From Lacibacter sp. H375 (GTDB lineage Bacteria > Bacteroidota > Bacteroidia > Chitinophagales > Chitinophagaceae), in assembly GCF_037892425.1 (NCBI RefSeq), contig NZ_JBBKTT010000001.1:3038001-3102000 (forward strand): a stretch of 64,000 bases of DNA. The letters are read 5' to 3'. Numbering within the stretch: the first letter of the stretch is position 1; each line of letters begins with the position of its first letter. Under the pieces are notes generated by a model, which was given only the letters and a program-made list of their open reading frames with translations, ran no database searches and was not told the DNA's origin. A program made the position numbers and the translations under genes. Below, piece by piece: positions 3,090-44,489 of the stretch.

Positions 3090-3183
3090 AGCGGTTGGTG
3101 GTACTACTGTCTGGATGAGCGAGTATTGAAATAAAAATTTCTAAGCCTTTAAAACGAAAGAAGTGAATTGTAAAACGAAATTA

Positions 3184-6201: not shown

Positions 6202-6204
6202 AGT

Positions 6205-9123: not shown

Positions 9124-9181
9124 AGCGGTTGGCATTTTGCATATAAATTCTATTCAGAACAAAACAATTTCACAAAAAAGC

Positions 9182-12478: not shown

Positions 12479-12548
12479 GTTTTAGAGTAATTGAGTAGAT
12501 TAGATCATTCGCAGTTCTGCTCAATTTCATTTAAAAAAACAGTTGGTC

Positions 12549-16462: not shown

Positions 16463-17545
<1,083 letters not shown>

Positions 17546-17584
17546 ATCATAGCAAATACATTTAACCACTTTAAAACAGGTAGT

Positions 17585-18836: not shown

Positions 18837-22075
<3,239 letters not shown>

Positions 22076-22397
22076 TTATCAGTACGAGGTGAAGTTTAAA
22101 AGTAGAAGCAGATAGATATTGTATTATTTCAGAATAAAGCAGAGCTGTCATTACCGTATCGTCCAACGGTATTGTTAACTAAAAACCATTGCTTACAACC
22201 TGAGATCAAACAATATAAAGTTGCAGGTTAATTATCTGTTCAGGCAAAAGAAATAATACTCATTGCCGTACATGTTGACTCTCCCGTGCAGAGGATTTAT
22301 GTGAGGTAGAGCCCATCGGAAAAAAATAGAATTGCAGCATCTTATAATTAAAAGCAAAAGAGTGATACCTGTATTGTCAAATTTTCAAATTGTAAAA
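22076..22397. other. 322-bp intergenic region, no gene seen
   Basis: No supported coding frame; the in-frame extension back to a TTG at 22332 adds a tail without a signal peptide and is not used. Two short inverted repeats are visible: TACCGT/ACGGTA (22152-22157 with 22166-22171) and AACCTG/CAGGTT (22197-22202 with 22224-22229). Neither has a T-run, so no clear terminator. The size suggests a promoter for the next block (hydrolase, GH10, esterase F), but I could not identify a convincing -33/-7 pair. Confidence 0.4.
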
Positions 22398-23288
22398 ATG
22401 AAAGCAAGCAAAACCTGTTTGATGATATGCCTGCTCTTTTCATTCACAGTGCGTGCACAGGAAATTGTTGAACTGTATCCCGGTTCAATCCCCAATGCAA
22501 AGAAATCTGAAAAGAAAGAAACCTTCAACGGAGGAATGTTTCGTGCTGTGACAAAGCCAACACTGGAAATCTATCTGCCAGAAAAAGAGAAAGCAACAGG
22601 AACGGCTTTAATTATCATTCCAGGTGGTGGATACAGTGTGGTTGTTTACCAGGGAGAAGGAATTGCTACAGCAAAACAATTTGCAAGTAAAGGCATCGCT
22701 GCTTTTGTATTGAAATACCGATTGCCGGATGACTCCATGATGTTGAATAAAACAATTGGTCCCTTGCAGGATGCACAGCAAGCCATCAAATTCGTTCGGG
22801 AAAACGCATCGAAGTGGGGAGTTGACACAAACAAAGTGGGTGTTATTGGGTTTTCTGCGGGTGGTCATTTGGCTTCCACGGCAGCAACTCATTTCCAAAA
22901 ACCGGTGATTGAAAACATAAGCAATACTAATCTGCGGCCCGACTTTCAGATTGTTGTTTATCCGGTCATCAGTATGCAGGACAGCTTAACGCATCGAGAC
23001 TCCAGAAACAAATTGCTTGGAAATAATCCATCGAAAGAACTTATCAACCAATATTCAAATGAATGGCAGGTTACCAGCAAAACACCACCCGCTTACATCA
23101 CTCACGCAGCCGACGATAAAGTAGTGGATGTAGATAACAGCATTGCCTATTTTGAAAGTTTAAGACATCAGAATGTTGCTGTTGAAATGCACGTTTATCC
23201 AAAAGGCGGGCATGGCTTTATCTTCCGGCAACCGGATTGGATAGAGCCTTTACTTCTGTGGATGAAGAAAAATAATTGGATAAATTAA
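22398..23288 (+). CDS. BD-FAE-like alpha/beta hydrolase, probable hemicellulose esterase
   Basis: A 296-residue exported alpha/beta hydrolase. ATG 22398 is chosen because it starts the signal peptide (ending TVRAQ). Fold marks: oxyanion segment IIPGGGYSVVVYQGEG, nucleophile Ser153 in GFSAGGHLAS, acid Asp239 in HAADDKVVDVDNS, His272 in GGHGF. This is the dienelactone-hydrolase/BD-FAE group, distinct from the CE1 copies, with members acting as acetyl-xylan or feruloyl esterases. Adjacent to GH10 (28 bp), so most likely de-acetylates xylan; exact ester unknown. Confidence 0.85.
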   Translation: MKASKTCLMICLLFSFTVRAQEIVELYPGSIPNAKKSEKKETFNGGMFRAVTKPTLEIYLPEKEKATGTALIIIPGGGYSVVVYQGEGIATAKQFASKGIAAFVLKYRLPDDSMMLNKTIGPLQDAQQAIKFVRENASKWGVDTNKVGVIGFSAGGHLASTAATHFQKPVIENISNTNLRPDFQIVVYPVISMQDSLTHRDSRNKLLGNNPSKELINQYSNEWQVTSKTPPAYITHAADDKVVDVDNSIAYFESLRHQNVAVEMHVYPKGGHGFIFRQPDWIEPLLLWMKKNNWIN

Positions 23289-23316: not shown

Positions 23317-24447
23317 ATGGAAAAAATGTCTATAAACAAAATCACAAGTATTCTTTTTGCTGTTTCTATCGTCGTCATTTTTAGCTATTGCAGCAGCAAA
23401 TTGAGCCAGTCATCGCCAAACCAGGTAAAAGGATTAAAGGATTATTACAAAGATTATTTTTTGATGGGTGTTGCTGTTACTCCCCGTCAGTTGCAGGGCG
23501 AAGACTCGGCTTTAATCGTTAATCATTTCAATAGTGTAACAGCCGAAAACGCTATGAAGATGGGGCCAATTCATCCAGGCGAAAACGAATACTATTGGAA
23601 AGATGCCGATGCCATCGCTGATTTTGCTAAAAAACATGGATTGAAGATGCGTGGTCATACCTTATTGTGGCATGCCCAGGCTCCCGCATGGATGTTTAAA
23701 GATGCGGATGGTAAAGAAGTATCGAAGGAAGTTTTATCACAGCGGTTAAAAGAACACATAACCACGGTAGTTAACCGGTATAAAGACCGCATTTATGGTT
23801 GGGATGTAGTTAACGAAGCAATTGATGATAATGATACAGTTTTCTACCGCAAAACACAATGGCTAAAAATATTTGGTAGCGAAGAGTTTATTGCCAAAGC
23901 ATTTGAGTATGCGCATGCTGCCGACCCTAAGGCCGTTCTCTTTTACAATGACTACAACACAGAAAATCCAAAGAAGAGAGAGAAGATTTATCAGATGGTT
24001 AAAAAACTAAAAGAGTCTGGTATTCCAATTCATGGTGTGGGTTTGCAGGGGCATTGGTCTATCAATAATCCGTCAAGAGAAGAATTGGAAAAATCAATAC
24101 AGATGTTTTCTTCACTGGGCTTGCAAGTACAAGTAACCGAGCTGGATGTGTCGGTGTATGGAGGCAGGCAAGGCGGACAATTAATTCAGGGTCAGCGTAG
24201 AGATACCACCACCAGCTTTACTCCTGAAATGGAAGAACCACAACGGGAAAAATACAAAATGGTGTTTGATGTTTTTCGCCAGTACAAAGAAAAGTTAACC
24301 GGTATAACCTTTTGGAATTTAAGCGACCGTTATACCTGGCTGGATGGCAGGGGAAGGAAAAATTATCCCTTGTTATTTGATATAAACCGTCAACCCAAAA
24401 AAGTGTATTGGGATGTGGTGAATTTCACGCAGGAAAAAAGCAAGTAA
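23317..24447 (+). CDS. GH10 endo-beta-1,4-xylanase, lipoprotein (second copy)
   Basis: A 376-residue GH10 barrel with lipoprotein signal (lipobox SYC, Cys25). Motifs: RGHTLLWHAQAPAW, acid/base Glu167 in WDVVNEA, YNDYNTENP, GVGLQGHWS, nucleophile Glu275 in TELDVSV, FWNLSDRYTWLDG. It differs from the first GH10 in the stretch after the nucleophile (a longer Gly/Gln/Thr-rich loop, about 278-305), which may change subsite contacts. Two anchored GH10 enzymes in one locus suggests different xylan classes or positions. Flanked by esterase genes on both sides. Confidence 0.95.
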   Translation: MEKMSINKITSILFAVSIVVIFSYCSSKLSQSSPNQVKGLKDYYKDYFLMGVAVTPRQLQGEDSALIVNHFNSVTAENAMKMGPIHPGENEYYWKDADAIADFAKKHGLKMRGHTLLWHAQAPAWMFKDADGKEVSKEVLSQRLKEHITTVVNRYKDRIYGWDVVNEAIDDNDTVFYRKTQWLKIFGSEEFIAKAFEYAHAADPKAVLFYNDYNTENPKKREKIYQMVKKLKESGIPIHGVGLQGHWSINNPSREELEKSIQMFSSLGLQVQVTELDVSVYGGRQGGQLIQGQRRDTTTSFTPEMEEPQREKYKMVFDVFRQYKEKLTGITFWNLSDRYTWLDGRGRKNYPLLFDINRQPKKVYWDVVNFTQEKSK

Positions 24448-24480: not shown

Positions 24481-25662
<1,182 letters not shown>

Positions 25663-25734: not shown

Positions 25735-27987
25735 ATGATCCTGAAACGATTGTCAGCCAAACTCAGCATTGCAGTTGTTGCATTGCTGTTGTTGTCTTTT
25801 TATATCGGTTGTAATTCGGGGGCATCCACGTATAACCATACTACATGGTCGCAATATGGTGGCGGTCCCGATCAGTCGAAATATTTCGATGCATCTGAAA
25901 TTACGAAAGATAATGTGGGGCAGTTGCAGATTGCGTGGATGTATAACTCTCAGGACAGTATGTCTTACTTTTTCAGTCCTGTTGTTGTGGACAGCATGAT
26001 GTATTTGATGGCGAAAAATTTTTCACTGGTTGCAGTGAATGTGCATACGGGTAAAGAAGTTTGGATCCACACGAAGCTGATGGGTTTATCAAGAAGAGGC
26101 ATCAACTACTGGGAGAGTAGTGATAAAAAAGACAAACGACTCGTCTTTACATTGAATAATTCGTTGCAGGCGATCGATGCGGTTACAGGAAAAAGTATTC
26201 TGAGTTTTGGCGATAGTGGTTATGTTGATCTGCGGCAGGGCCTTGATCGTGATCCTTCTTCCATCAGGCGAATGCAATCCATGATGCCCGGCATTATTTA
26301 CAACGATCTTGTTATACTTGGCTCTGCTCCCGGCGAAAATTATTTTTCACCACCGGGTCATATAAGAGCTTACAACGTAGTTACAGGAAAATTAGAATGG
26401 ACCTTTCATACCATCCCCCATCCCGGTGAATTTGGATACGATACCTGGCCAAAAGATGCTTACAAATATGCAGGTGCTGTAAATGTGTGGAGTGAAATGT
26501 CAGTAGATGAAAAAAGAGGCATTGTGTATCTCCCGCTGGGTTCTCCCACGTATGATTATTATGGTGCCGATCGCATTGGTGCCAATCTGTTCGGCAATAG
26601 TTTAGTGGCACTTGATGCAAAAACAGGAAAACGCATCTGGCACTACCAAACGGTGCATCACGATCTGTGGGATTATGATCTTGCTTCCGCACCGCAGTTG
26701 CTAACGGTAAAGAACAATGGCAAAGAGGTCGATGCAGTTGCGGTGGCTACCAAGCATGGTTTTATGTTTGTGTTCGACAGAGTAACAGGTGATCCATTTT
26801 TCCCAATCGATGAAAAACCATTCCCTGCCAGTGAAATGCCGGGCGAACAGGCATGGCCCACACAACCCATTTCTTCACTACCGGATTTTACAAGGCACAC
26901 TGTAACAAAGGAAACACTCAATCCATTTTTTCCTGACAGTATTAAACAGCAATGGCACAAGCGTCTTGATTCGTCAAAGTCCGGTTTGTATCTTCCTCCA
27001 TCAGACAAATATGAAACGGTAATGATGCCGGGTGCATTGGGAGGTGCCAACTATGGTAATACAGGTTCCAATCCCGGCAAAGGAATCATGTATGTGATGA
27101 CACAGGAATATGCTTCCACTTACAAACTCAAAAAAGTGCTCCCTCCTTCAGCGAATTTGTCGAACGATGAGGTAAAACGTGTGAAAGCATTTTACACTGC
27201 TACTTGTAAAACCTGTCATGGTGCCAATATGGAAGGAGGTCTTGCACCATCATTGGTAAACGCAGGCCAGCGTATTTTTTATGATGAGTTTAAAGGTATT
27301 GTGCTGAATGGTCGTGGACAGATGCCGGGATTTGTGCATGTAGATGAGCAAACAATTACTGCCTTGTATCGCTATCTCGGAGGAAACCCTGCACGACCAA
27401 ATTTCTTCAGAAGAATGGATACCACTTCAAAAGTAAGTGGACCAGTAGTTGCATCAGGTGGTGCTAAAATAAAACCAGATGCAAACCGTAGTGCTCCCAT
27501 GTTTGATTATCCGGAAGGAGTAGATCATCCGGTTGATCGCTATACAACTGATTATGGGTTAGACTGGATGGGATTGTTATCACCTCCCTGGTCATCATTG
27601 GTTGCTTATGATCTCAATACCGGCACCATCAAATGGAGAAAACCTATTGGTGAAGATTCACTTTACAGCAAAGGCGATAAAACAACCGGCGCACCTAGTG
27701 GTGTTTTACGAAAAGGAATGGTAGTTACATCAACAGGAATTGTATTCGCTACTGCAAAAGGTGGTAAGCTCTACGCATTTGATGCAGACAATGGAACTGT
27801 TTTATGGGAAACAACATTGAGTCATGAAACCAATGGACAACCGATCATGTTTACAAAAAATGGTAAGCAATATTTAGTCGTAAATGCAACGGGCACATTT
27901 GCGAAAGACAGCTATAATCATGCTGCCAAACCCGGTGCTATTCCAAGAGGTTATCTGGTTTATGCATTACCCGACATGAAAAAATAA
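25735..27987 (+). CDS. PQQ-type quinoprotein dehydrogenase with inserted cytochrome c domain, lipoprotein
   Basis: A 750-residue lipoprotein (Cys26 in YIGC). It has the beta-propeller of PQQ-dependent dehydrogenases of the glucose-dehydrogenase-like group: WSQYGGGPDQSKYFD, VALDAKTGKRIWHYQ, HHDLWDYDLA, LVAYDLNTGTIKWR. A c-type haem site CKTCH (Cys491, Cys494, His495) sits in a domain of about 80 residues inserted between late blades, with a candidate axial Met in GRGQMPGF. Expected reaction: periplasmic oxidation of a sugar or alcohol, electrons passing from PQQ to the internal haem. No PQQ biosynthesis genes are visible. Within a xylan locus the substrate could be xylose, a released oligosaccharide or a lignin-like alcohol; undetermined. 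Confidence 0.85.
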   Translation: MILKRLSAKLSIAVVALLLLSFYIGCNSGASTYNHTTWSQYGGGPDQSKYFDASEITKDNVGQLQIAWMYNSQDSMSYFFSPVVVDSMMYLMAKNFSLVAVNVHTGKEVWIHTKLMGLSRRGINYWESSDKKDKRLVFTLNNSLQAIDAVTGKSILSFGDSGYVDLRQGLDRDPSSIRRMQSMMPGIIYNDLVILGSAPGENYFSPPGHIRAYNVVTGKLEWTFHTIPHPGEFGYDTWPKDAYKYAGAVNVWSEMSVDEKRGIVYLPLGSPTYDYYGADRIGANLFGNSLVALDAKTGKRIWHYQTVHHDLWDYDLASAPQLLTVKNNGKEVDAVAVATKHGFMFVFDRVTGDPFFPIDEKPFPASEMPGEQAWPTQPISSLPDFTRHTVTKETLNPFFPDSIKQQWHKRLDSSKSGLYLPPSDKYETVMMPGALGGANYGNTGSNPGKGIMYVMTQEYASTYKLKKVLPPSANLSNDEVKRVKAFYTATCKTCHGANMEGGLAPSLVNAGQRIFYDEFKGIVLNGRGQMPGFVHVDEQTITALYRYLGGNPARPNFFRRMDTTSKVSGPVVASGGAKIKPDANRSAPMFDYPEGVDHPVDRYTTDYGLDWMGLLSPPWSSLVAYDLNTGTIKWRKPIGEDSLYSKGDKTTGAPSGVLRKGMVVTSTGIVFATAKGGKLYAFDADNGTVLWETTLSHETNGQPIMFTKNGKQYLVVNATGTFAKDSYNHAAKPGAIPRGYLVYALPDMKK

Positions 27988-28031
27988 AAAAACTGTTCTG
28001 CATATTATGAACTGTTAAACAAGCAAGCAAC

Positions 28032-29243
28032 ATGAAAAAATTATTCATCCCTTTCGTTATACTCGCAGCACTTCACACAGTTGCGCAACCACTTCAGCAA
28101 CGAATTGTTTTGAATGATCCGGCAAAATACAGGATGTTATCTGCCGTGCATGCCGGTGCAGGTGAAATGGGATTTACACAATTGATCGGTCGTACAGAAC
28201 TGTCAACAAATTTTCTTTATCTGCATGCAGGTACTATAAAAGCGAAATCTGGGATCGGCCACCATTTTCATCACGGTATAGAAGAAATGTATGTACTGCT
28301 TAATGGCGAAGCACAATTCACCATCAATGGCCGTACATCAAAAATAAAAGCTCCTGCTGTAGTGCCCTGCAAAGCAGGCGATTCACATGCGATTTACAAC
28401 GCATCAAACGAACCTGTGCGTTGGTTGAATTTTGCAGTGAGTCAACAAAAAGGAAAATCGGATGCATTTGATTTGGGAGATAGCCGTGTTGGCGCATCAC
28501 TTGATCCCATACCTGTTTTTGTTTCGGGTAAGCTGGAAAAGCAGCCAACCAATAATCAGAATGTGCCGCCCGGTTTTAAACCTTCCATGAGCAGACGGGT
28601 TTTTGGTCCGGATATTTTTTCAACCAACTGGAACCATGTTGATCACATTATAATTCCGGCCGACAGTTCAGTAACTCGTCAACTCAACGGCATTGAAGAA
28701 GTGTATTATGTAATAAAAGGAAAAGGAACTGTTAGTTTGAATAGTCAAAATGCAACAGTAAAACAAGATGATTCGTTCTTCGGCTCTCTTGGTGAAAAAA
28801 CAATCATTACAAACAATAATAAAGAAGACCTTGAAATATTGGTGATTGGAATTGCTGCATCTAAGCAGGATCATTTGACTATCAATAATCCATTGATCAA
28901 ACCCAAAGCAATGGCTTTGCAAATGGAATTTGTTGTGCCGAAAGAAAATGCAGAAGCGTTTGAAAAAATGTACTACTCCATTTATGTTCCTGCGATGAAA
29001 GTTCAAACCGGTTATCTCGGATCAAAATTGCTTCGGCTGTTTCCTGAAAACAGATCAAAGGAAATCCAAGCTGAACCTACAACCTACAATTACCAGATAC
29101 AAATTTCATTTGATACAGAAGAGAACCGCAGAAAATGGGTGGCAAGTAAACAACACGATATTGCCTGGCCTGCAGCATCCGGTTTGGCCACACAATTCAA
29201 GTGGAAAGGTTATGATGTAATGGGCGATGATGAGCAACGATAA
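28032..29243 (+). CDS. Exported double-cupin protein with C-terminal ABM-like domain
   Basis: A 403-residue protein with a signal peptide (ending HTVAQ). Cupin 1 (about 45-145) has a full metal motif: HHFHHGIEEMYVLLNGEA and a later His in DSHAIYN. Cupin 2 (about 180-280) keeps GIEEVYYVIKGKG but has TRQLN where the paired His should be, so it likely binds no metal. The last ~115 residues (from MALQMEFVVPKENAEAFEKM) resemble ABM-type ferredoxin-like folds. No exact family known to me has this order. It follows the PQQ dehydrogenase by 44 bp and precedes the beta-helix gene by 9 bp, so a joint oxidative role is plausible; reaction unknown. Confidence 0.75.
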   Translation: MKKLFIPFVILAALHTVAQPLQQRIVLNDPAKYRMLSAVHAGAGEMGFTQLIGRTELSTNFLYLHAGTIKAKSGIGHHFHHGIEEMYVLLNGEAQFTINGRTSKIKAPAVVPCKAGDSHAIYNASNEPVRWLNFAVSQQKGKSDAFDLGDSRVGASLDPIPVFVSGKLEKQPTNNQNVPPGFKPSMSRRVFGPDIFSTNWNHVDHIIIPADSSVTRQLNGIEEVYYVIKGKGTVSLNSQNATVKQDDSFFGSLGEKTIITNNNKEDLEILVIGIAASKQDHLTINNPLIKPKAMALQMEFVVPKENAEAFEKMYYSIYVPAMKVQTGYLGSKLLRLFPENRSKEIQAEPTTYNYQIQISFDTEENRRKWVASKQHDIAWPAASGLATQFKWKGYDVMGDDEQR

Positions 29244-29252
29244 ATAATGTAA

Positions 29253-30905
29253 ATGTTTTTTCGATCACCTGTCATATTAATCAGTGTGCATTTGTGTGTT
29301 GCTGTGATCAGCAGTAACGCACAGGACATGCAACCAACTTCATCACTCGTTTATCCGGGTGTTGATGGTAAGCTGTTGTATGTGGCTGATAGTATCGGAA
29401 ATGTGATACCAGATTTTTCCAACGCAGGTTACAAAGGCGGAGGTGTTCGTATTCCGTATGTGGCAGTGAAAGTAACTGTGTGGCCCGTGCAAGGTGATAA
29501 TTCAGAATTGATACAAGCAGCAATTGATCGTGTTGCTGCAATGCCGGTTGATGCAAGTGGTTTCAGAGGAGCAGTGCTGCTGAAGATGGGCATTTATCAT
29601 CTTGCAAAACCCATTTACATCCGTGCATCGGGCATTGTACTTCGTGGAGAAGGAATGAGTGATCTTGGTACAATCCTCATTGGTAAAACAAGTGAACAAA
29701 CGCAGGGGCCTGGTTTTCGTCAACCCGCACTCATTAATGTAACAGGTACTGCAGGTGCTGTGGAAGCAGGTGAACCAAAACAACTGATCTCTGATCAGTA
29801 TGTTCCGGTTGGTGCAAAAACGTTCAATGTTGGTTCAGCAAAAGGATTCAAGGTGGGCAACAAAATTCTTGTTCGCAGATATGGTAACGAAGAATGGATC
29901 AAAGAACTTGGACAGGATACATTATCTGTTGGGCGATTCCGTTGGAAACCTTTCACCATAACATACGATCGGGTGATCACTGCCATCAATGGAAATACAA
30001 TAACAATTGATGCACCTGTTTTTTGTGCTATCGAAACAAAGTGGGGCGGTGGTGATATTGTGAAGTATATCGATACCGGTCGCATTGAACAGGTTGGCAT
30101 TGAAAACTTGAGAGCTATCTCTGAATACAATCCATCAGTTAGAAGAAAAGATTACGGGAATATGGATCGAGGATCATATGACGGGCCTGGTTCAAAATAT
30201 GAAGGTGATGAATACTACGCAGACGAAAATCACTATTTCAATTGTATCAATTTCAGCAATACAAAAAATGCATGGGTGCGAAATATCAGTGCCTTACATT
30301 TTGGCAGCAGCGTTGTACTTACAACAGCAGGTACCAAATGGATCACGGTGCAGGATTGTGAATCAAGAGAACCCGTTTCCATGCGTGCAGGTGCAAGAAG
30401 GTTTACCTATCAACTTAATGGGCAGTTGAGTTTGGTACAGCGATGTTATTCGCAAAAAGGGCGTCACTCGTTTGTAATGCAAACATCTTCGTCCAGTGGT
30501 AATGTATTCTTCAATTGCGAAGCAACACAACCCTACTCTTCCAGTGAGCCGCATGCAAACTGGGTAAATGGTGCATTGTATGATAATGTAAAAGCTCCGC
30601 TTACTGCAAGGTTCTGGAAAGATATCAGCATTGGTTGGGCAGGTGCAAATATTGTATTCTGGAATTGCGAAGGCGATTTTTTGATTCAACAACCACCAAC
30701 AGCACAGAATTATTCCATTGGTCACAAAGGTGTTGCATCTGTAATTTTTAACAGGTCACTGCAGGATCTTTCCAAACCAAATGGTTATGTGGAATGGATG
30801 GATCAACATGTAGCACCACGGAGTCTTTACTTAACACAACTCAAAGAACGGCTGGGCGCAACTGCTGTAAAAAATATCGGGAAAGATGAAGAAAGCTTTG
30901 ACTAG
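29253..30905 (+). CDS. Exported right-handed beta-helix protein (pectate-lyase-like fold)
   Basis: A 550-residue protein with signal peptide (ending SSNAQ). It shows the start of the pectate-lyase-superfamily fold: DNSELIQAAIDRVAAMP, GAVLLKMGIYHLAKPIYI, SGIVLRGEGMSD. Repeating short strands follow with N-rich turns (NISALHFGSSVVL, WITVQDCESREP, NVFFNCEAT). It is therefore a parallel beta-helix carbohydrate-active or carbohydrate-binding protein. I cannot assign a lyase or hydrolase family: no diagnostic Lys/Arg/Asp catalytic set is evident. It is tightly packed between two cupin proteins (9 and 43 bp), which is an unusual setting. Confidence 0.65.
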   Translation: MFFRSPVILISVHLCVAVISSNAQDMQPTSSLVYPGVDGKLLYVADSIGNVIPDFSNAGYKGGGVRIPYVAVKVTVWPVQGDNSELIQAAIDRVAAMPVDASGFRGAVLLKMGIYHLAKPIYIRASGIVLRGEGMSDLGTILIGKTSEQTQGPGFRQPALINVTGTAGAVEAGEPKQLISDQYVPVGAKTFNVGSAKGFKVGNKILVRRYGNEEWIKELGQDTLSVGRFRWKPFTITYDRVITAINGNTITIDAPVFCAIETKWGGGDIVKYIDTGRIEQVGIENLRAISEYNPSVRRKDYGNMDRGSYDGPGSKYEGDEYYADENHYFNCINFSNTKNAWVRNISALHFGSSVVLTTAGTKWITVQDCESREPVSMRAGARRFTYQLNGQLSLVQRCYSQKGRHSFVMQTSSSSGNVFFNCEATQPYSSSEPHANWVNGALYDNVKAPLTARFWKDISIGWAGANIVFWNCEGDFLIQQPPTAQNYSIGHKGVASVIFNRSLQDLSKPNGYVEWMDQHVAPRSLYLTQLKERLGATAVKNIGKDEESFD

Positions 30906-30948
30906 AAAACGAAACAGACAATCATAAAAAAAAATAAACGAACGAATC

Positions 30949-32886
30949 ATGCTGTTAAACTCATTCAAATCGATTTTACATATAAGCGCATTGTTGCTTT
31001 TTTCCTTTAGTTTTTCCAACTGCAACTCTGTACCCGAAGCAGCCTGGGAAAAAACAAACAATGAACTGATCAAACAGCATCAACTCAAGAGACGTACAAT
31101 AGACGGCTTACCTGCTTCAATAGTTGAATCGAATATTGAACCTGCGAAAGTGGCCAGCCTCGATAAGTTAGACAGTATAGTGTTGCATACAGGTGTATCT
31201 GCAAAAATTTTCTGGGGTGCAGGAAATATGGTGAGTGTGTTGCAGCTTCAACCACATGCAGTCATCCCTGAAGAGGTGTTAACTGCCGACCGGTTTTTAT
31301 TTATCCTGGAAGGATCTGCTGGTTATGTTGTCAATGGCACTGCGCTGTCGATGTTTTCACAAAAAAGGGAAAGCCCCGATGGCACACATAGCGGCACGCC
31401 GAGAACAGATTTTGTGTATTCAGAAAAAGGAACAAAATCTGCAATTAAAGCAGGTTCTTCAGGAGCAAGGCTGTTGGAAGTGTACAGCCCGTTGCGTGCC
31501 GACTATCTGAAAAAAGCGGGTGTTACAAATGCACCCACAGAAATTCCTGATATAAAAAATGTGATGCAGCCGAATATTACTGCTAACCAAGTCTATGATC
31601 TGTATAATCTGCAACTCACCACACTTACAGCCGATGCACATTCACGGATATTATCAGGCAGAAATATGCAGTTAAGTTTTATATCGATGGATCCGGGTTC
31701 TGTGTTTCCGCATCATATACATCCTGAAGAACAATTGATGTTTGTACTGAGAGGCGAATGCCGTGAAATCTTATTGGATGGCGAACAGGAAATGAAAACA
31801 AATAACATGGTGCGCATTCCAGGTAACATGGTGCACGGTGCGAAGATTAGCGAATTGGGTTGCGATGCATTGGATATATTCTGGCCTGCGAGAGAAGATT
31901 ATCTTGAAAAAGAAAAAGCAAGAATTACAGCTTATCATGAAATTATTCCTGCTGATGCAAAGCCGGAGTTACTGGTTGATGGTAAAAATACAAAGCCTGA
32001 ATTATTTTTTACTGAAGGACCGAAATGGATGAACGGAAAGGTTTATCTATCCAATATGTTCTTTGATCAAAATTGGGGTGCAAATCCTAAGAAAAGTTCA
32101 ACAGTTGAACTCGATCCCAACGGAACTTACCGGAATATTTCGGAAGGAAAAATGCAAACAAACGGATTGTATCCTTACAAAAACGGTAACCTCATTGTTT
32201 GTGATATGATGGGCCACCGGGTTGTGGAAATGACCACGAAGGGCGAAGTGGTAAGAGTATTGGCAGATAAATATGAAGGCAAATCAATTGACGGACCCAA
32301 TGATGTGATCACCGATGCAAAAGGCGGCTTTTATTTTACCGATCCGCAGTTTACCATGGAGCCAACAAAATTTCAACCCGGCCGTGCAGTGTATTATGTT
32401 TCTAATGAAGGAAAAATAACAAGGCTTGTGCAGCCAAATGAATTTGCTATGCCCAATGGAATACTGTTATCACCCGATGGCAAAACACTTTACATCAACA
32501 ACTGCTATGATAATGAATCGTGGTATCCTGTTAACAGCGAAAAGGATAATCATATCTGGGCATATGATGTGAATGCCGACGGCAGCATCAGTAACGGAAG
32601 AAAATTTGCCACGTTATTCCTTACCGAAAATGTATTGGATCGAAAAGGAAAATCATCCAGTGCTGATGGTATGGCCATTGATACAGATGGAAATCTTTAT
32701 GTGGCTACTTACTACGGTGTACAGATTTTTAATAAAAGAGGAGAGTTCGTTGGCATGATCAATCTTCCTTCCTTCCCGGTGAGTTTATGTTTTGGAGATG
32801 CCGATCTCAAAACGTTGTACATAGTCAGCTACAGTAAAGTGTACAAGATTAAAACAAACAAAAAAGGATTTGTTCAGTATTTATAA
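30949..32886 (+). CDS. Lipoprotein fusing two cupins to an SMP-30/gluconolactonase-type propeller
   Basis: A 645-residue lipoprotein (lipobox SNC, Cys25). Cupin 1 (about 55-175) lacks a clear His pair. Cupin 2 (about 205-315) has a canonical site: His255/256 and His258 in FPHHIHPEE, His296 in MVHGAK. Residues about 325-645 form a six-bladed SMP-30-type propeller with the expected metal and substrate motifs: TEGPKW, GPNDVITD, MPNGILLSPDG, SADGMAIDTDGNLY. Lactonases of this fold open aldono-lactones, exactly the product of PQQ aldose dehydrogenases, one of which is encoded 3 kb upstream. Function as lactonase is inference from fold plus context. Confidence 0.8.
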   Translation: MLLNSFKSILHISALLLFSFSFSNCNSVPEAAWEKTNNELIKQHQLKRRTIDGLPASIVESNIEPAKVASLDKLDSIVLHTGVSAKIFWGAGNMVSVLQLQPHAVIPEEVLTADRFLFILEGSAGYVVNGTALSMFSQKRESPDGTHSGTPRTDFVYSEKGTKSAIKAGSSGARLLEVYSPLRADYLKKAGVTNAPTEIPDIKNVMQPNITANQVYDLYNLQLTTLTADAHSRILSGRNMQLSFISMDPGSVFPHHIHPEEQLMFVLRGECREILLDGEQEMKTNNMVRIPGNMVHGAKISELGCDALDIFWPAREDYLEKEKARITAYHEIIPADAKPELLVDGKNTKPELFFTEGPKWMNGKVYLSNMFFDQNWGANPKKSSTVELDPNGTYRNISEGKMQTNGLYPYKNGNLIVCDMMGHRVVEMTTKGEVVRVLADKYEGKSIDGPNDVITDAKGGFYFTDPQFTMEPTKFQPGRAVYYVSNEGKITRLVQPNEFAMPNGILLSPDGKTLYINNCYDNESWYPVNSEKDNHIWAYDVNADGSISNGRKFATLFLTENVLDRKGKSSSADGMAIDTDGNLYVATYYGVQIFNKRGEFVGMINLPSFPVSLCFGDADLKTLYIVSYSKVYKIKTNKKGFVQYL

Positions 32887-32898
32887 ACTATAAAATAA

Positions 32899-33765
<867 letters not shown>

Positions 33766-33822
33766 ACACATCCTTCGGGTTTGTACAATGTAAACAAACA
33801 AATTAAATGTAAAATCAAAAAA

Positions 33823-34776
33823 ATGAAAAAGCTACTTACACTTGCAATAGCAGCAATAGGGTCAACAACTGCCTTTGCACAAAATCCCATCATCAAACAC
33901 ATTTTTACTGCAGATCCTTCGCCCATTGTGCACAAGGGTACTTTGTATTTATACACAGGTCATGATACAGCATCTGTAACTGCTACCAATTATAAAATGC
34001 CTGATTGGCATGTGTTTTCTACAACAGACATGAAGAACTGGAAAGATCATGGTGTACAGCTTTCGCCACATACTTTTTCATGGGCTACCGGCGATGCCTA
34101 TGCAGCACAGTGTATTGAGCGTGATGGCAAATTTTATTGGTTTGTTTCAACTTTTCATAAAAAAGACAGTGTAAGTAACGGTGGTGCAGCAATTGGTGTT
34201 GCTGTATCCGATAAACCAACAGGACCATTTAAAGATGCAATTGGAAAAGCACTCGTGATCAACGAAATGACGACGGATAAGAAACATTCATGGGATGATA
34301 TTGATCCTACTGTAATGATTGATGATGATGGGCAGGCTTATATGTATTGGGGTAACGGAAGTTGTAAATGGGTAAAGCTGAAAAAAAATATGATTGAGAT
34401 CGATGGACCAATTAATATAGTTGCTATTAAAAATTTCATCGAAGGCCCATGGGTATACAAACGTAAAGGGTTTTATTATTTGGTATATGCAAGTGCGGGC
34501 ACCAAACCTGAAATGATCGAATACTGTATGGCCCCTAGTCCAACAGGGCCTTGGGAATACAAAGGTATTATACAGGAAAATGTACCGAACAGTTTTACTA
34601 CACATCCTGGTATCATTGATTACAAAGGCAAGTCGTATTTCTTTTATCACAATGGCACATTGCCTACCGGGGGCAGTTACAGGCGCTCCATTTGTGTAGA
34701 CTATATGTATTACAATGAAGATGGAACCATTCAGAAGATCATTCAAACAACAGAAGGGGTGAAGCCAATCAAGTAA
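33823..34776 (+). CDS. GH43 single-domain beta-xylosidase/arabinofuranosidase
   Basis: A 317-residue exported propeller enzyme. ATG 33823 gives the signal peptide (ending TAFAQ); the in-frame TTG at 33781 adds 14 residues without function. Catalytic candidates: Asp31 in TADPSPI, Asp161 in DIDPTVMIDDDG, Glu207 in FIEGPWV. It lacks any carbohydrate-binding module, unlike the first GH43. Its start (HIFTADPSPIVHKG) resembles the fourth GH43 at 36.4 kb, so the two are probably related subfamily members. It should release xylose or arabinose from small oligosaccharides. Confidence 0.9.
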   Translation: MKKLLTLAIAAIGSTTAFAQNPIIKHIFTADPSPIVHKGTLYLYTGHDTASVTATNYKMPDWHVFSTTDMKNWKDHGVQLSPHTFSWATGDAYAAQCIERDGKFYWFVSTFHKKDSVSNGGAAIGVAVSDKPTGPFKDAIGKALVINEMTTDKKHSWDDIDPTVMIDDDGQAYMYWGNGSCKWVKLKKNMIEIDGPINIVAIKNFIEGPWVYKRKGFYYLVYASAGTKPEMIEYCMAPSPTGPWEYKGIIQENVPNSFTTHPGIIDYKGKSYFFYHNGTLPTGGSYRRSICVDYMYYNEDGTIQKIIQTTEGVKPIK

Positions 34777-34824
34777 TATAATTCGTTATTTAAAAATATC
34801 TTTCGGAACAAATTACCAGTTTAA

Positions 34825-36402
34825 ATGATCAAGAAATTCATTTTTGTTTTTGGAATTATCAGTTGCCTCAGTCAGAATAATGTTGCACAAACAAAACTGG
34901 CTGCCAATCCAGTCATCCATGCTGATGTTCCTGATTTGTCAATGATACGAGTAGGCAATAACTATTACATGAGCAGCACCACCATGCACATGAGTCCTGG
35001 AGTGCCGATTATGAAATCTACTGATCTCATCAACTGGAAACTCATTGGCTATGCGTATGATACCTTGGTGAATAATGATGAAATGAATCTTGTAAACGGA
35101 AAATCTACTTATGGTCGTGGTTCATGGGCCAGCAGCATCCGCTATCACAAGGGTACATACTATGTTTCAACCTTTGCTGCTACAAGCGGCAAAACACATA
35201 TCTACAGTACAAAGAATATTGAGAAAGGTCCGTGGAAAGAAATTACGTTCCGTCCTGATCTTCACGATCATTCCTTGTACTTCGATGATGATGGTAAAGC
35301 GTACATGATCTATGGCAACAGAAAATTAACACTCGTTGAATTAAAAGATGATCTGACTGGCCTGAAAGAAAACGGCATCAAACAGGTGATCATTGAAGAT
35401 GCAACACAACCCAGTCAAAGCGTTGGACAAAGTGGTTTAGGCGAAGGTTCGCAACTCTTCAAAGCAAATGGTATGTACTATCTGTTCAACATTACTTGGC
35501 CAAGGGGCGGCATGCGTACAGTAGTGATTCATCGTGCAAAAAGACTTACCGGTCCATGGGAAGGCAGAATTGCATTACAGGATCTGGGAGTTGCGCAGGG
35601 TGGATTAATCGATATGCCTGATGGCCGATGGTTTTCTTATCTGTTTCGTGATAACGGAGCAGTAGGTCGTATTCCATATTTAGTCCCTGTCAAGTGGGAA
35701 GATGGCTGGCCGGTGTTAGGAGAAAACGGAAAGGTACCGGCAACACTTAACCTACCGGCAAGCAAAGGTTTGATTCCGGGTATTGTTGTTTCTGATGAGT
35801 TCACTCGCAAAAAAGGTGACGCTGCTTTGCCACTCGCCTGGCAATGGAATCATAATCCTGACAATCGTTTTTGGTCGGTTACTGCACGCAAAGGTTTTCT
35901 TCGTCTTACAACCGGCAGAGTTGACAGCAGCTTTCTTTCAGCAAGAAATTCGCTAACGCAACGTACCATCGGTCCTTTTTGTACTGGTGTTACCGCTTTA
36001 GATGTATCAAACATGAAAGATGGTGATGTTGCAGGCTTTGCTTTGTTGCAAAAAAATTATGGATTGGTTGCTGTGCGTGTAACAGGTACTGCTAAAGAGC
36101 TGGTGATGATCAACGCAAGCTCAGGCAAAGCAGAAGAAGTACAACGTATTACTTTTACACAAGCAACTGTCTACTTTAAAGCAGAATGCAATTTTACCAA
36201 CCGCAAAGATGTTGCTGATTTCTTTTACAGTACAGATGGAAAGAACTGGATAAAGTTTGGTACAACGTTAAAGATGTCGTACACGCTTCCGCATTTTATG
36301 GGTTACCGTTTCACGTTGTTCAATTACGCAACCAAAGAAAAGGGAGGCTTTGTAGATTTTGATTATTTCAGAATCAATGATACGATTTCCAAACCGAAAT
36401 AA
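34825..36402 (+). CDS. GH43 with C-terminal beta-sandwich, probable arabinofuranosidase/xylosidase
   Basis: A 525-residue exported enzyme (signal ending NNVAQ). Propeller about 27-310; GH43-type C-terminal sandwich about 330-525 (VVSDEFTRKKGDAALPLAWQ, then FVDFDYFRI). Catalytic candidates: Asp37 in ADVPDLSM, Asp148 in HDHSLYFDDDG, Glu207 in GEGSQLF. The wording STTMHMSPGVPIMKSTDLINW is typical of the larger GH43 beta-xylosidase/arabinofuranosidase group with this accessory domain. It lies between two other GH43 genes at 46-48 bp spacing, so all three are one transcription unit. Confidence 0.9.
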   Translation: MIKKFIFVFGIISCLSQNNVAQTKLAANPVIHADVPDLSMIRVGNNYYMSSTTMHMSPGVPIMKSTDLINWKLIGYAYDTLVNNDEMNLVNGKSTYGRGSWASSIRYHKGTYYVSTFAATSGKTHIYSTKNIEKGPWKEITFRPDLHDHSLYFDDDGKAYMIYGNRKLTLVELKDDLTGLKENGIKQVIIEDATQPSQSVGQSGLGEGSQLFKANGMYYLFNITWPRGGMRTVVIHRAKRLTGPWEGRIALQDLGVAQGGLIDMPDGRWFSYLFRDNGAVGRIPYLVPVKWEDGWPVLGENGKVPATLNLPASKGLIPGIVVSDEFTRKKGDAALPLAWQWNHNPDNRFWSVTARKGFLRLTTGRVDSSFLSARNSLTQRTIGPFCTGVTALDVSNMKDGDVAGFALLQKNYGLVAVRVTGTAKELVMINASSGKAEEVQRITFTQATVYFKAECNFTNRKDVADFFYSTDGKNWIKFGTTLKMSYTLPHFMGYRFTLFNYATKEKGGFVDFDYFRINDTISKPK

Positions 36403-36448
36403 TCATGAATCCAAATGGATCATCATAGTTAAAATTAATAATACTGAA

Positions 36449-37798
36449 ATGAAAAAATTAAAGAAAGCGATTTTTGTTTGTGTGATTTTATTAATTGCTG
36501 CAAACGGACTGTTTGCCCAAAATCCTTTTATCAGAGATCAATTTACTGCAGACCCATCTGCCAGGGTTTTTGGTAACAGAGTGTATGTCTATCCGTCGCA
36601 CGACATACTTGCAAAGGAAGGTAAAGGACGTGTTGGGTGGTTTTGTATGGAAGATTACCATGTGTTTTCATCGGATAATCTTACAGATTGGACTGATCAT
36701 GGTATGATCGTAACACAAAATAAAGTGCCGTGGGTTCGTCCGGATAGTTACAGCATGTGGGCGCCGGATTGCATTGAGCGGAATGGCAAGTACTACTTCT
36801 ATTTTCCAACAGCGGCAAAAGATACGGTGGCACATGGCAGAGGATTTACAATAGGTGTTGCTGTTGCTGATAAGCCCGAAGGACCCTATGTTCCGCAAGC
36901 AACACCTATTGCAGGCGTAAGAGGAATTGATCCGAATGTTTTTATTGATAAAGACGGGCAGGCTTATCTCTACTGGTCGGCAGGAAATATTTATGGCGCC
37001 AAATTAAAATCAAATATGCTGGAGCTGGATTCGGAAGTGAAAATATTAGGTGAACTGCCAACAAAAGGTTTGAAAGAAGGTCCGTATGTATTTGAACGGA
37101 ATGGTATTTACTATATGACCTATCCGCATGTTGAAAATAAAACCGAACGACTGGAGTATGCAATTGGCAATAATCCCTTAGGACCCTTTAAAATAGTTGG
37201 TGCTATCATGGATGAATCGCCAAGCGGTTGCTGGACAAATCATCATTCGATTATCCAGTTTAAAAATCAATGGTATCTTTTTTATCATGATAAAGATTAT
37301 TCACCAAGGTTTGATAAAGCACGTTCAATCAGAATAGATAGTCTTTCATTTAATGCCGATGGAACAATCAGGAAAGTAATACCAACTTTGCGAGGTGTAG
37401 GAATAACAAAAGCAACCTCTCAAATTCAAATCGACAGGTTTACGCAGTTAAGTACAGATGGAGCATCCATTACGTTTCTTGATTCGATGAATACATTTAA
37501 GGGATGGGAAACAGTTTTTGCTAAACCGGGGGCATGGTCGCAATACAATAGTGTTGACTTTGGGAAAAAACAATTAAAAACAGTAACTGTAAATGCAAGA
37601 TCTGAAGAAGACGGCATATTGCAGATACGCATTAATAGTGTAAACGGACCTGTAATTGCAGAAATAGCAATACCCAAAAGTAACGAGTGGAAATTGATAC
37701 AGGCGCCGGTATTGAAGTATCAATCAGGAATTAAAAATCTGTTTGTGACATTAAAGAGTGGTACACATACAGGAATAGACTGGATAAGTTTTAAATAG
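36449..37798 (+). CDS. GH43-CBM6 arabinoxylan-active enzyme
   Basis: A 449-residue exported enzyme; ATG 36449 starts the signal peptide (ending GLFAQ), so the frame continuing back into the preceding gene is ignored. GH43 propeller about 25-315 with Asp35 in TADPSAR, Asp161 in GIDPNVFIDKDG, Glu210 in KEGPYV. The last ~120 residues are a CBM6-like module (SQIQIDRFTQLS to GIDWISFK). This order matches arabinoxylan arabinofuranohydrolases, although xylosidase activity is possible. It is the last gene of the locus, followed by two hairpins including a strong terminator. Confidence 0.9.
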   Translation: MKKLKKAIFVCVILLIAANGLFAQNPFIRDQFTADPSARVFGNRVYVYPSHDILAKEGKGRVGWFCMEDYHVFSSDNLTDWTDHGMIVTQNKVPWVRPDSYSMWAPDCIERNGKYYFYFPTAAKDTVAHGRGFTIGVAVADKPEGPYVPQATPIAGVRGIDPNVFIDKDGQAYLYWSAGNIYGAKLKSNMLELDSEVKILGELPTKGLKEGPYVFERNGIYYMTYPHVENKTERLEYAIGNNPLGPFKIVGAIMDESPSGCWTNHHSIIQFKNQWYLFYHDKDYSPRFDKARSIRIDSLSFNADGTIRKVIPTLRGVGITKATSQIQIDRFTQLSTDGASITFLDSMNTFKGWETVFAKPGAWSQYNSVDFGKKQLKTVTVNARSEEDGILQIRINSVNGPVIAEIAIPKSNEWKLIQAPVLKYQSGIKNLFVTLKSGTHTGIDWISFK

Positions 37799-38058: not shown

Positions 38059-38982
38059 ATGGCAACAAGGCAACAAGTTAAAAAACAGGAAGGCTTCGAA
38101 GGGCAACGGATGATCGTACTACCAAGAAAGATCGAAAAGGATTTTCTGTTACGTGATGCGGTTACCCGTCAGGTATTTATTACAGATATTGGTTATTACC
38201 CAAAGGCCCGTTATCACTATGTACATCGAAAAAACGGAGCCGATCAGCACATCTTCATTTATTGTACGCAAGGTAAAGGCTGGGTCGAATTCAACAGGAA
38301 GCGTGTCATCCTTTCGCCTTCGCAATTTGTTATTATTCCTGCTAACGCAGCACATAAATATGGAGCCGATGAAAAAGATCCCTGGTCGATCTACTGGTTT
38401 CATTTCAAAGGAAAATTAGCCACGGAATTTGTAGATCTTATTTTTCAAAAAGTAAAAACACAGCATTCTCATATTGTTCATGCAGAAAACAAGATCAGGC
38501 TATTTGAGGCAATGTACAGCAATCTTGAAAAAGGCTATAGTGCCGTTAATCTGCGTTTTGTTAATATGACGCTCTATCATTTTCTCTCATCACTGTTGTA
38601 CGAAGATAAATTCAGTTATGAAACGCCGAAAAGGGAAAATGATTTAATCGCAGCGGTAGTTGCACATATGCAGCAAAACATCGACAGCATTTTTACACTG
38701 AATGAATTTGCTGCTTTTGCAAACCTTTCTTCATCGCATTTTTCCGCTTTGTTCAAAACGGGGACGGGGTATCCGCCGATGGAATACTTTAATCAATTAA
38801 AGATTCAGAAAGCCTGTCAGTTATTATTGTTCTCCGATAAGTCGGTAAAGGAAATTGCACATGAATTGGGTATTGCTGATCCCTATTACTTTTCAAGATT
38901 GTTTACCAAGCTGATGGAGGTGTCACCTTCGGAATACAGGAGCAGGAAAAGACAATTGGAGGTTTTCTCCCACAAAAAGTAA
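38059..38982 (+). CDS. AraC-family transcriptional regulator
   Basis: A 307-residue cytoplasmic regulator with no signal peptide. An AraC-type cupin sensor domain (about 45-180: HIFIYCTQGKGWVEF, IIPANAAHKYGAD, WSIYWFHFKG) is followed by a double helix-turn-helix domain (about 205-300: IDSIFTLNEFAAFANLSSSHFSALFKTGTG, then SVKEIAHELGIADPYYFSRLFTKLM, and PSEYR). Such proteins sense a sugar or small metabolite and activate nearby operons. It sits between the xylan locus terminator and the cytochrome block, so either could be its target. No hybrid two-component or SARP-type regulator of the usual PUL kind is visible in the window, which makes this the best local candidate. Confidence 0.93.
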   Translation: MATRQQVKKQEGFEGQRMIVLPRKIEKDFLLRDAVTRQVFITDIGYYPKARYHYVHRKNGADQHIFIYCTQGKGWVEFNRKRVILSPSQFVIIPANAAHKYGADEKDPWSIYWFHFKGKLATEFVDLIFQKVKTQHSHIVHAENKIRLFEAMYSNLEKGYSAVNLRFVNMTLYHFLSSLLYEDKFSYETPKRENDLIAAVVAHMQQNIDSIFTLNEFAAFANLSSSHFSALFKTGTGYPPMEYFNQLKIQKACQLLLFSDKSVKEIAHELGIADPYYFSRLFTKLMEVSPSEYRSRKRQLEVFSHKK

Positions 38983-41908: not shown

Positions 41909-41925
41909 TTCTGTAAACGTATACT

Positions 41926-43434: not shown

Positions 43435-43461
43435 TCACATTCAAGACAACCAATCATTACA

Positions 43462-44397: not shown

Positions 44398-44489
44398 GAT
44401 GATTAGTGCGGTTTCGTCTGACGAGCAACCTTTGAAGAATAAATTAATAAACAGATTTAGTTAAAGTAAAATACTCGCAGCTTTCTATC

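Follow-up and report, generated by a model that had tools for sequence, protein, structure and literature searches.

Bacteroidota polysaccharide loci are usually described as systems that hydrolyze a polymer and import the products. What, then, would genes for a putative oxidative pathway be doing inside one? The question is raised by a 64,000-nucleotide stretch of the genome of Lacibacter sp. H375 (assembly GCF_037892425.1, contig NZ_JBBKTT010000001.1, positions 3,038,001 to 3,102,000; the whole stretch is called the window here, and positions are counted from its first nucleotide), in which four consecutive genes, all on the + strand and separated by gaps of 44, 9 and 43 bp, lie within a xylan locus. 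They encode a pyrroloquinoline quinone (PQQ)-type dehydrogenase with a glucose dehydrogenase (GDH)-like propeller and an inserted haem c domain (25735-27987; 750 aa, lipobox-like Cys26), a double cupin with a C-terminal alpha/beta (ABM-like) domain (28032-29243; 403 aa, Cupin_2 at 60.5 bits), a predicted right-handed beta-helix protein (29253-30905; 550 aa) and a lipoprotein in which two KdgF/CelOCE-like cupins are fused to an SMP-30 lactonase propeller (30949-32886; 645 aa), hereafter the fusion. A preliminary description of the window had placed four adjacent exported genes with gaps of 9-44 bp within a xylan locus, which is borne out by the open reading frames (ORFs), the Pfam content and our rule for export signals, and had proposed that the locus may oxidize released sugars, or lignin-linked aromatics, outside the cytoplasm before uptake.

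We lean toward the view that the set is the extracytoplasmic front end of an oxidative, non-phosphorylative (Weimberg-type) sugar pathway that is tied here to the use of xylan. The dehydrogenase would oxidize a released aldose at C1, most likely D-xylose and possibly L-arabinose or a short xylo-oligosaccharide, using PQQ taken from the environment, and its haem c would hand the electrons on to the respiratory chain. Opening of the lactone would fall to the SMP-30 domain of the membrane-anchored fusion. The aldonate would then be imported and converted to 2-ketoglutarate along the Weimberg route, with an IlvD-type dehydratase, a KdaraD-like dehydratase and a semialdehyde dehydrogenase as the enzymes. 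The cupins, both those of the double cupin and those of the fusion, and the beta-helix protein would perhaps provide isomerase- or mutarotase-like help and glycan trimming.

Co-occurrence of the Set in Other Genomes

Is the set peculiar to one strain? A search for its co-occurrence across Bacteroidota, which the preliminary description had suggested, found that it recurs. Within a sample of 294 genomes drawn from one family (genomes have G-codes and loci L-codes below), and with E-value cut-offs that differ per protein, the fusion occurs in seven genomes (cut-off 1e-60) and the double cupin in eight (1e-20), and the beta-helix protein, counted at full length and at least 65% identity, occurs in seven (any relative at E 0.001, in 82). 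The fusion, the beta-helix protein and the double cupin are common to the same seven genomes (G000, G160, G027, G048, G077, G172 and G227), which span six genera; the eighth double-cupin genome is G289. The dehydrogenase belongs to a broad family that is present in 101 of the 294 genomes at E 1e-100, and the eight genomes with its best relatives (at least 65% identity) are the same seven plus G289, the next genome having 57%. The recurrence of the fusion, beta-helix protein and double cupin in the same genomes is more than chance; the coincidence of two random sets of seven in 294 has a p of 2.9e-14 (relatedness ignored). Gene order is as in the window in G160, which is of the same genus; in G027, G227, G077 and G172 all four are on a single contig, scattered across ~14 to 63 kb, and in G048 they are divided between two contigs.

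A scan of genome contigs turned up the fusion at 52 loci, its best segment having 54-79% identity; by their labels all are from Bacteroidota save one Aminicenantes metagenome-assembled genome and one labelled Williamsia (L147; the label is probably wrong). With ORFs in the fetched stretches called by a longest-ORF rule, and partners counted at an identity floor of 45% within about 10 kb, the double cupin is near the fusion in 28 loci, the dehydrogenase in 30 and the beta-helix protein in 24, so that at least one partner is found in 46 loci, at least two in 31 and all three in five. For the 37 loci with full flanks the counts are 35 with at least one partner and 29 with at least two; six of the 52 have none (L097, L108, L114, L116, L118 and L140). 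Of the 26 loci that have both the dehydrogenase and the double cupin, 24 have the former directly before the latter, on the same strand. Pairwise divergence is also correlated, with Mantel r of 0.88 for dehydrogenase and double cupin (n=26), 0.74 for double cupin and fusion (n=27), 0.68 for fusion and beta-helix protein (n=22), 0.35 for dehydrogenase and fusion (n=30) and 0.37 for enolase-type dehydratase and fusion (n=17); every p was at the floor of 0.001, and such correlation could come from shared species phylogeny alone.

Other genes recur beside the fusion as well. An RraA-like protein or an enolase-type dehydratase is near it in 31 of the 52 loci, and of the genes of the xylan locus, the one found most often near it elsewhere (17/52) encodes a double esterase, which we name CE1d. 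Clustering of unassigned neighbor ORFs gave five clusters, present in 8, 6, 5, 4 and 4 of the 52 loci and named by eye as esterase-like (two), DUF1080-like, SnoaL-like and dehydrogenase-like. In the Allomuricauda loci L129, L130, L131 and L142 a second, more distant pair of RraA-like and enolase-type genes stands beside the first. Judged by eye, the set or its fusion/beta-helix half lies among housekeeping-looking genes in L128, L103, L115 and L117, and L115 has three tandem beta-helix genes.

Could the set then be a stand-alone extracytoplasmic pathway for another sugar or sugar acid, recruited into several polysaccharide loci and present here incidentally? The four loci just named, where the fusion with or without partners has housekeeping-looking surroundings, and the frequency of RraA-like or enolase-type partners speak for this. 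We nonetheless consider it unlikely, as in the window, in G160 and in other genomes of the family the set is in or beside xylan-type loci with CE1, GH43 and GH10 genes, and CE1d recurs as described. The opposite extreme, a role in xylan use only, was rejected as too narrow: some loci lie among housekeeping-like genes by eye, and a xylan-type relative is near a minority of the 52 (see below).

The PQQ-Type Dehydrogenase

The dehydrogenase matches PF01011 at 532 bits (cut-off 26.7), the best stretch being residues 38-468, and this is followed by Cytochrome_CBB3 at 479-548 and PQQ_2 at 621-718. Because pieces of the propeller are found on both sides of the cytochrome domain, the haem domain is inserted within the propeller. 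In an alignment of the window protein with 20 of the 29 eligible locus proteins, residues E201, T272, D310, K340, C491, C494, H495 and M530 are invariant (21/21). E201 and D310 align with the cofactor-site Glu and Asp of the quinohaemoprotein alcohol dehydrogenases 1yiq and 1kv9, and we take them to be the cofactor-site Glu and the catalytic Asp of PQQ enzymes; C491, C494 and H495 form the haem c CXXCH motif, and M530 is a candidate Met ligand. The PQQ-propeller motifs and the internal CKTCH haem reported previously are both upheld. The window enzyme shares a propeller, the aligned Glu and Asp and a haem c with 1yiq and 1kv9, but their haem domain is C-terminal. Its best NCBIfam model is of the glucose/quinate/shikimate type, below cut-off, and with the membrane glucose dehydrogenase family (TIGR03074) it has the propeller in common although it scores far below the curated cut-off.

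Where would the cofactor come from? According to a study of PqqU-dependent PQQ scavenging, the 206 PqqU-bearing Bacteroidota that it identified lack PQQ synthesis genes (PMC12124388), and the genomes studied here resemble those in having a PQQ-type enzyme without detected PQQ synthesis genes.

The Cupin-Lactonase Fusion

The description of the last protein as cupins fused to an SMP-30-type lactonase proved correct. Its SGL domain scores 124.3 bits (cut-off 26.3) and Cupin_2 39.1 bits, and residues E356, N451, N503 and D573, which we take to be the SMP-30 metal residues, are invariant in 50 of 50 fusions (the window protein and those of 49 of the 52 loci; L132, L138 and L145 failed the coverage or identity filter). 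The same 50 sequences all have a Cys at the lipobox-like position 25. Relative to the SMP-30/gluconolactonase family (3e5z), the window protein has the whole SGL domain with the four conserved metal residues but differs in its fusion to two cupins and its predicted lipid anchor.

In the second cupin, H256, H258 and Q262 are present in 49 of the 50 sequences and H296 in all, presumably forming a site of three His and one Gln of the KdgF/CelOCE type. In the PDB this cupin matches 4e2g at E 2.7e-13, 9bwf (the cellulose oxidative enzyme, CelOCE) at 1.5e-8 and KdgF (5fq0) at ~5e-4. The His-x-His-x3-Gln ... His pattern is shared with 5fq0 and 9bwf, the site residues aligning with those of the latter, but here it belongs to the second copy of a duplicated cupin that is joined to a lactonase. 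Might the fused cupin act on the ends of xylan or cello-oligosaccharides in the manner of CelOCE, with the fused lactonase opening the aldonolactone? The better match to 9bwf than to KdgF would favor such oxidative chain cleavage, but 4e2g, whose title gives no function, matches better still, KdgF and other cupins match too, and one of the 50 sequences (L141) lacks H256, H258 and Q262 in the alignment, and we regard this explanation as highly improbable.

The Double Cupin and the Beta-Helix Protein

Neither of the two middle proteins had been assigned a reaction, and our family searches and fold matches give none. In the double cupin, residues H78, H80, E84, E85 and H119 of the first cupin are invariant in 26 of 26 sequences (the window protein and 25 of 26 locus proteins). 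Its model (pLDDT, the predicted local distance difference test, 74.3) is nearest to bicupins of many kinds, a mixture of quercetin and salicylate dioxygenases, seed proteins, oxalate decarboxylase and pirin. The label "double cupin-ABM" holds for its first half. The C-terminal domain has no Pfam match to ABM, the sole sub-threshold match being DUF4286 (18.6 bits, cut-off 25.8), so we rejected ABM as a sequence assignment; the beta-alpha-beta order of the modeled domain is compatible with that fold.

The dioxygenases among these folds raise the possibility that aromatics are handled instead, with ferulate-type or lignin-linked alcohols oxidized by the dehydrogenase, the double cupin acting as a dioxygenase and the SMP-30 domain opening an aromatic-derived lactone. 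The five PF00756 esterases of the locus (CE1, possibly feruloyl), the alcohol dehydrogenases that are the PDB neighbors of the dehydrogenase, and the membership of the RraA-like partners in an aldolase family would suit such a role. We think it quite improbable, as the best NCBIfam model of the dehydrogenase, albeit below cut-off, is of the glucose/quinate/shikimate type, the partners resemble sugar-acid dehydratases (the enolase-type one below cut-offs) and bicupin fold matches are unspecific.

The beta-helix protein matches no Pfam family at E 0.001, sub-threshold matches appearing only at E 10. Its model has a mean pLDDT of 65.5, which is low confidence, with a poor C-terminal part; among the Foldseek matches listed, tailspikes and a capsule lyase are on top and GH28-type and epimerase folds lower, with query TM scores of at most 0.35. 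The profile of its alignment (the window protein and 29 of 29 locus proteins) found one PDB chain, the "putative pectin lyase" 7chu, over 58 residues at E 0.00027. The proposed fold is supported by a low-confidence model that is nearest to right-handed beta-helices and not by Pfam at E 0.001. Two more specific identities were discarded. As a BT_3328 lyase (NF058554, hyaluronate lyase) the protein scores 50.3 bits, far below the cut-off of 1100, and as a phage-type beta-helix it has no match itself, one PHROG matching five of the 30 members at E 0.0056 or weaker. A further relative is encoded in the same genome at L149 (C1:2486001-2506000, ORF 10693-13668), where the N-terminal part of a 991-aa protein is related to the window beta-helix and the C-terminal part is DUF6298 (836.5 bits); by eye it adjoins SusC/D-like genes.

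Uronate handling is another role that the beta-helix protein and the second fused cupin bring to mind: a lyase-like beta-helix protein would free (unsaturated) uronates, a KdgF-like cupin would open them, and the dehydrogenase and lactonase would turn a uronate or its product into an aldarate-type acid. The His/His/Gln/His site is retained in the second cupin, which also matches KdgF, the fold matches of the beta-helix protein include polysaccharide lyases and its nearest NCBIfam model is the hyaluronate lyase, and several loci in which no dehydrogenase was noted have adjoining fusion and beta-helix genes. We judge this reading improbable, given that 4e2g and 9bwf match the cupin better than KdgF does, that the lyase score is a small fraction of its cut-off and that there is no alpha-glucuronidase family among the Pfam-scanned proteins of the locus (the protein at 22332-23288 was not scanned).

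Weimberg-Type Genes and the Case for Oxidation Before Uptake

We return to the sugar-acid front end that we favor: if an aldonate were made outside the cytoplasm, which genes might break it down? In relatives the set belongs to larger clusters, whose pooled gene list (individual clusters hold subsets) comprises SusC/D, an AraC regulator, a gluconokinase-like FGGY kinase, a BASS carrier, an enolase-superfamily dehydratase, an RraA-like protein, a stand-alone SGL lactonase, IlvD, FAH and an aldehyde dehydrogenase (ALDH). Relatives of IlvD and FAH with at least 65% identity are present in all eight genomes (the seven and G289), and ALDH, whose best family is sub-cut-off, is present in a second locus of the window's own genome. 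IlvD is on the same contig as the dehydrogenase and within ~35 kb of it in six of the seven other genomes (G160, G027, G172, G227, G077 and G289), the seventh, G048, being fragmented. In L105 the order is dehydrogenase, double cupin, beta-helix, FAH, fusion, with gaps of 37 and 32 bp on the two sides of FAH. Similarly, the gap between ALDH and the double cupin is 27 bp in L109 and 26 bp in G227, and in L133 ALDH is 153 bp from the fusion, with FAH before it. The invariant residues, the proximity of IlvD and the FAH gene inside the L105 set fit a scheme in which the sugar is oxidized first and the acid is then imported.

In the window's own genome, IlvD scores 897.1 bits against PRK06131 (cut-off 539) and 849.6 against L-arabinonate dehydratase (cut-off 882), GntP scores 495.2 (cut-off 292.75), and the best PDB match of FAH is the 2-keto-3-deoxy-D-arabinonate dehydratase 2q18 (E 6e-55). 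Scores below cut-off were obtained for ALDH, whose best family is ketoglutaric-semialdehyde dehydrogenase (125.2 bits, cut-off 770), the enolase-type protein (galactonate dehydratase, 244.6, cut-off 311), FGGY (gluconokinase, 437.4, cut-off 648.55), the BASS protein (PanS, 236.8, cut-off 400) and a Gfo/Idh protein with a twin-arginine translocation (Tat) motif (D-xylose 1-dehydrogenase Gfo6, 154.7, cut-off 350). Across the family sample FAH is found in 7/7 set-bearing versus 93/287 other genomes (Fisher p 4.6e-4) and the enolase-type dehydratase in 7/7 versus 36/287 (p 9.2e-7), relatedness being ignored in both tests. The acid pathway is more widespread than the set, which within the 294-genome draw never occurs apart from it.

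The second locus (L085/L086, C1:790001-830000) has genes for Gfo/Idh, the enolase-type dehydratase, RraA, BASS, FGGY, SusC/D, ALDH, IlvD, SGL, FAH, GH10 and GntP. With its GntP and Gfo/Idh it is perhaps a second, NAD(P)-type sugar-oxidizing system.

A number of observations weigh against the front-end proposal. The best PDB sequence matches of the dehydrogenase are quinohaemoprotein alcohol dehydrogenases, and TIGR03074 gives 343.2 bits against a cut-off of 832.65. A lactonase function accounts for neither the cupins nor the beta-helix protein, and only 20 of the 52 fusion loci have a xylan-type esterase or hydrolase nearby (SASA not counted). pqqE is over cut-off in none of the eight genomes, sub-threshold matches occurring in 8/8 and in 14/14 controls, and pqqC matched neither in the eight nor in any control, which, with no positive control, does not show absence. 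In Lacibacter sp. H375 itself, 2.2 Mb separate the window (from C1:3038001) and the aldonate genes (~C1:792-823 kb; IlvD at C1:815618), and the locus of the latter has a lactonase of its own together with the Tat-motif protein that resembles D-xylose 1-dehydrogenase. IlvD, SGL, FAH, GntP and GH10 occur together in four of ten FAH loci (G000, G160, one in G289 and one in G027), and the Gfo/Idh protein occurs in exactly the same four as GntP, so that GntP goes with the Gfo/Idh dehydrogenase and not with the PQQ set; G027 and G289 each have two FAH loci, and GntP is at the one farther from the set. FAH is in 100 of the 294 genomes, 93 of them without the full set, and the enolase-type dehydratase in 43, of which 36 are without it. 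Finally, xylose isomerase is over cut-off in 8/8 genomes, and oxidation is therefore not needed for xylose use. In G172 a xylose isomerase (C3:87990-89288) is the next listed ORF after the FAH of the aldonate cluster, which points to xylose there but also offers a non-oxidative route.

Oxidation before uptake, as put forward in the preliminary description, thus stands in part: the set is real and recurs, its key residues are conserved and Weimberg-type genes are nearby in relatives, but it is not confined to xylan loci. Other points that do not support it are the alcohol dehydrogenases that are nearest in the PDB and the link of the GntP symporter, which would import the acid, to Gfo/Idh.

Export Signals and a Possible Extracytoplasmic Acid Breakdown

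Export signals were judged by a home-made rule for hydrophobicity and motifs. By this rule the four window proteins all have Sec-like or lipoprotein-like signals, and a hydrophobic core is present in 26/29 dehydrogenases (lipobox-like in 20), 26/26 double cupins, 27/29 beta-helix proteins and 48/49 fusions. IlvD, FAH, ALDH and FGGY of the window's own genome fail it. The rule can err, as that genome's cytoplasmic AraC regulator barely passes.

Two kinds of partner have signals as well. The enolase-type dehydratase, whose alignment with 2qq6 covers its length (E 1.8e-95), carries an RRxF motif in 17/17 sequences, only four of which pass the core limit, and RraA1 and RraA2 have signal-like cores in 17/17 each; the RraA-like protein aligns with 5x15, Arg-Asp pair included. 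Does part of the acid breakdown also take place outside the cytoplasm? Tentatively, and with more doubt than confidence, we suggest that all steps between the aldose and the 2-keto acid may take place extracytoplasmically, beside a cytoplasmic IlvD/FAH/ALDH route. The PQQ-type dehydrogenase and the lipoprotein cupin-lactonase would make the aldonate, a Tat-exported enolase-superfamily dehydratase would convert it to a 2-keto-3-deoxy acid, Sec-exported RraA-like proteins would cleave the latter, and a BASS/PanS-like carrier would import the keto acid. We entertain this scheme because of the RRxF motifs and signal cores, the enolase-type or RraA partners at so many fusion loci and the presence of dehydratase, RraA and BASS genes in the second locus of the same genome. 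Dehydratase and aldolase-like partners with export signals make extracytoplasmic sugar-acid breakdown directly testable.

Comparison with Pseudomonas and Implications

The closest precedent is the compartmentalized Weimberg pathway of Pseudomonas taiwanensis VLB120 (PMC11252243). There, the periplasmic PQQ enzyme Gcd makes xylonolactone and GntP can carry xylonate; in pseudomonads the lactone opens either spontaneously or with the help of a lactonase, and xylonate uptake needs no more than GntP and a second carrier (PMC11252243). The proposed likeness lies in the extracytoplasmic PQQ-type dehydrogenase, the opening of a lactone, and aldonate dehydration and a semialdehyde route inside the cell. 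The parts differ. The window dehydrogenase has a haem c whereas Gcd delivers to ubiquinone; the window lactonase is part of a lipoprotein that also contains two cupins, and the candidate second dehydratase is a KdaraD-like FAH protein; the set genes are in or near xylan polysaccharide utilization loci (PULs) and include an additional double cupin and beta-helix protein; and in the genomes studied here PQQ synthesis was not found and GntP is linked to another dehydrogenase. No description of the set was found in the literature, most subscription papers being outside our coverage, so this is not proof of absence.

The recurring set is, then, most probably the first part of an oxidative route through sugar acids, similar to that of Pseudomonas but with different parts, that has been built into a Bacteroidota PUL. 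If so, extracellular sugar oxidation with scavenged PQQ would alter models of carbon and energy flow from xylan, since xylan use would be linked to PQQ supplied by neighbors and electrons would pass straight to respiration. The haem-carrying dehydrogenase and the cupin-lactonase fusion would also be new enzymes for sugar acids.

The Surrounding Xylan Locus and Neighboring Genes

With a SusC/SusD pair and glycoside hydrolases, the locus that surrounds the set qualifies as a PUL. Pfam scanning gave one SusC-like protein, two SusD, two GH10, four GH43, one GH8, one GH95, five PF00756 (CE1-type) esterases and a SASA esterase. All of the following genes are on the + strand. Upstream of the set are the SusC-like/SusD pair (3163-8007; Plug and SusD families), a first GH10 protein (9137-10315; PF00331, 332.7 bits), three successive CE1-type esterases (15299-18817; PF00756 in each), the GH8 protein (18837-20126; PF01270, 89 bits), CE1d (20153-22075; PF00756), a second GH10 protein (23317-24447; PF00331, 352.4 bits) and, directly before the dehydrogenase, a CE1-type esterase with a CBM48-like domain (24535-25662; PF00756, 80.5 bits). 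Directly downstream is the SASA-type carbohydrate esterase (32917-33765; PF03629, 112.7 bits), followed by three GH43 proteins (33781-37798; PF04616 in each) and, at the end of the locus, an AraC-type regulator (38059-38982; HTH_18 at 75 bits, AraC_binding).

We also looked for signs of recent foreign origin in the G+C content, which is 0.418 for the module, 0.409 and 0.400 for the locus to its left and right and 0.396 for the rest, and saw no clear signal. A defense role was discarded, PADLOC having matched none of the four set proteins. Just past the xylan locus, at 39140-45884, is a planctomycete-type cytochrome gene set to which we assign no role; in order, it encodes a PSCyt1/DUF1549/DUF1553 protein, a DUF1501 protein with a Tat-signal match, a TIM-barrel protein with a near-threshold Tat-signal and a DUF2231-PSCyt1 protein.

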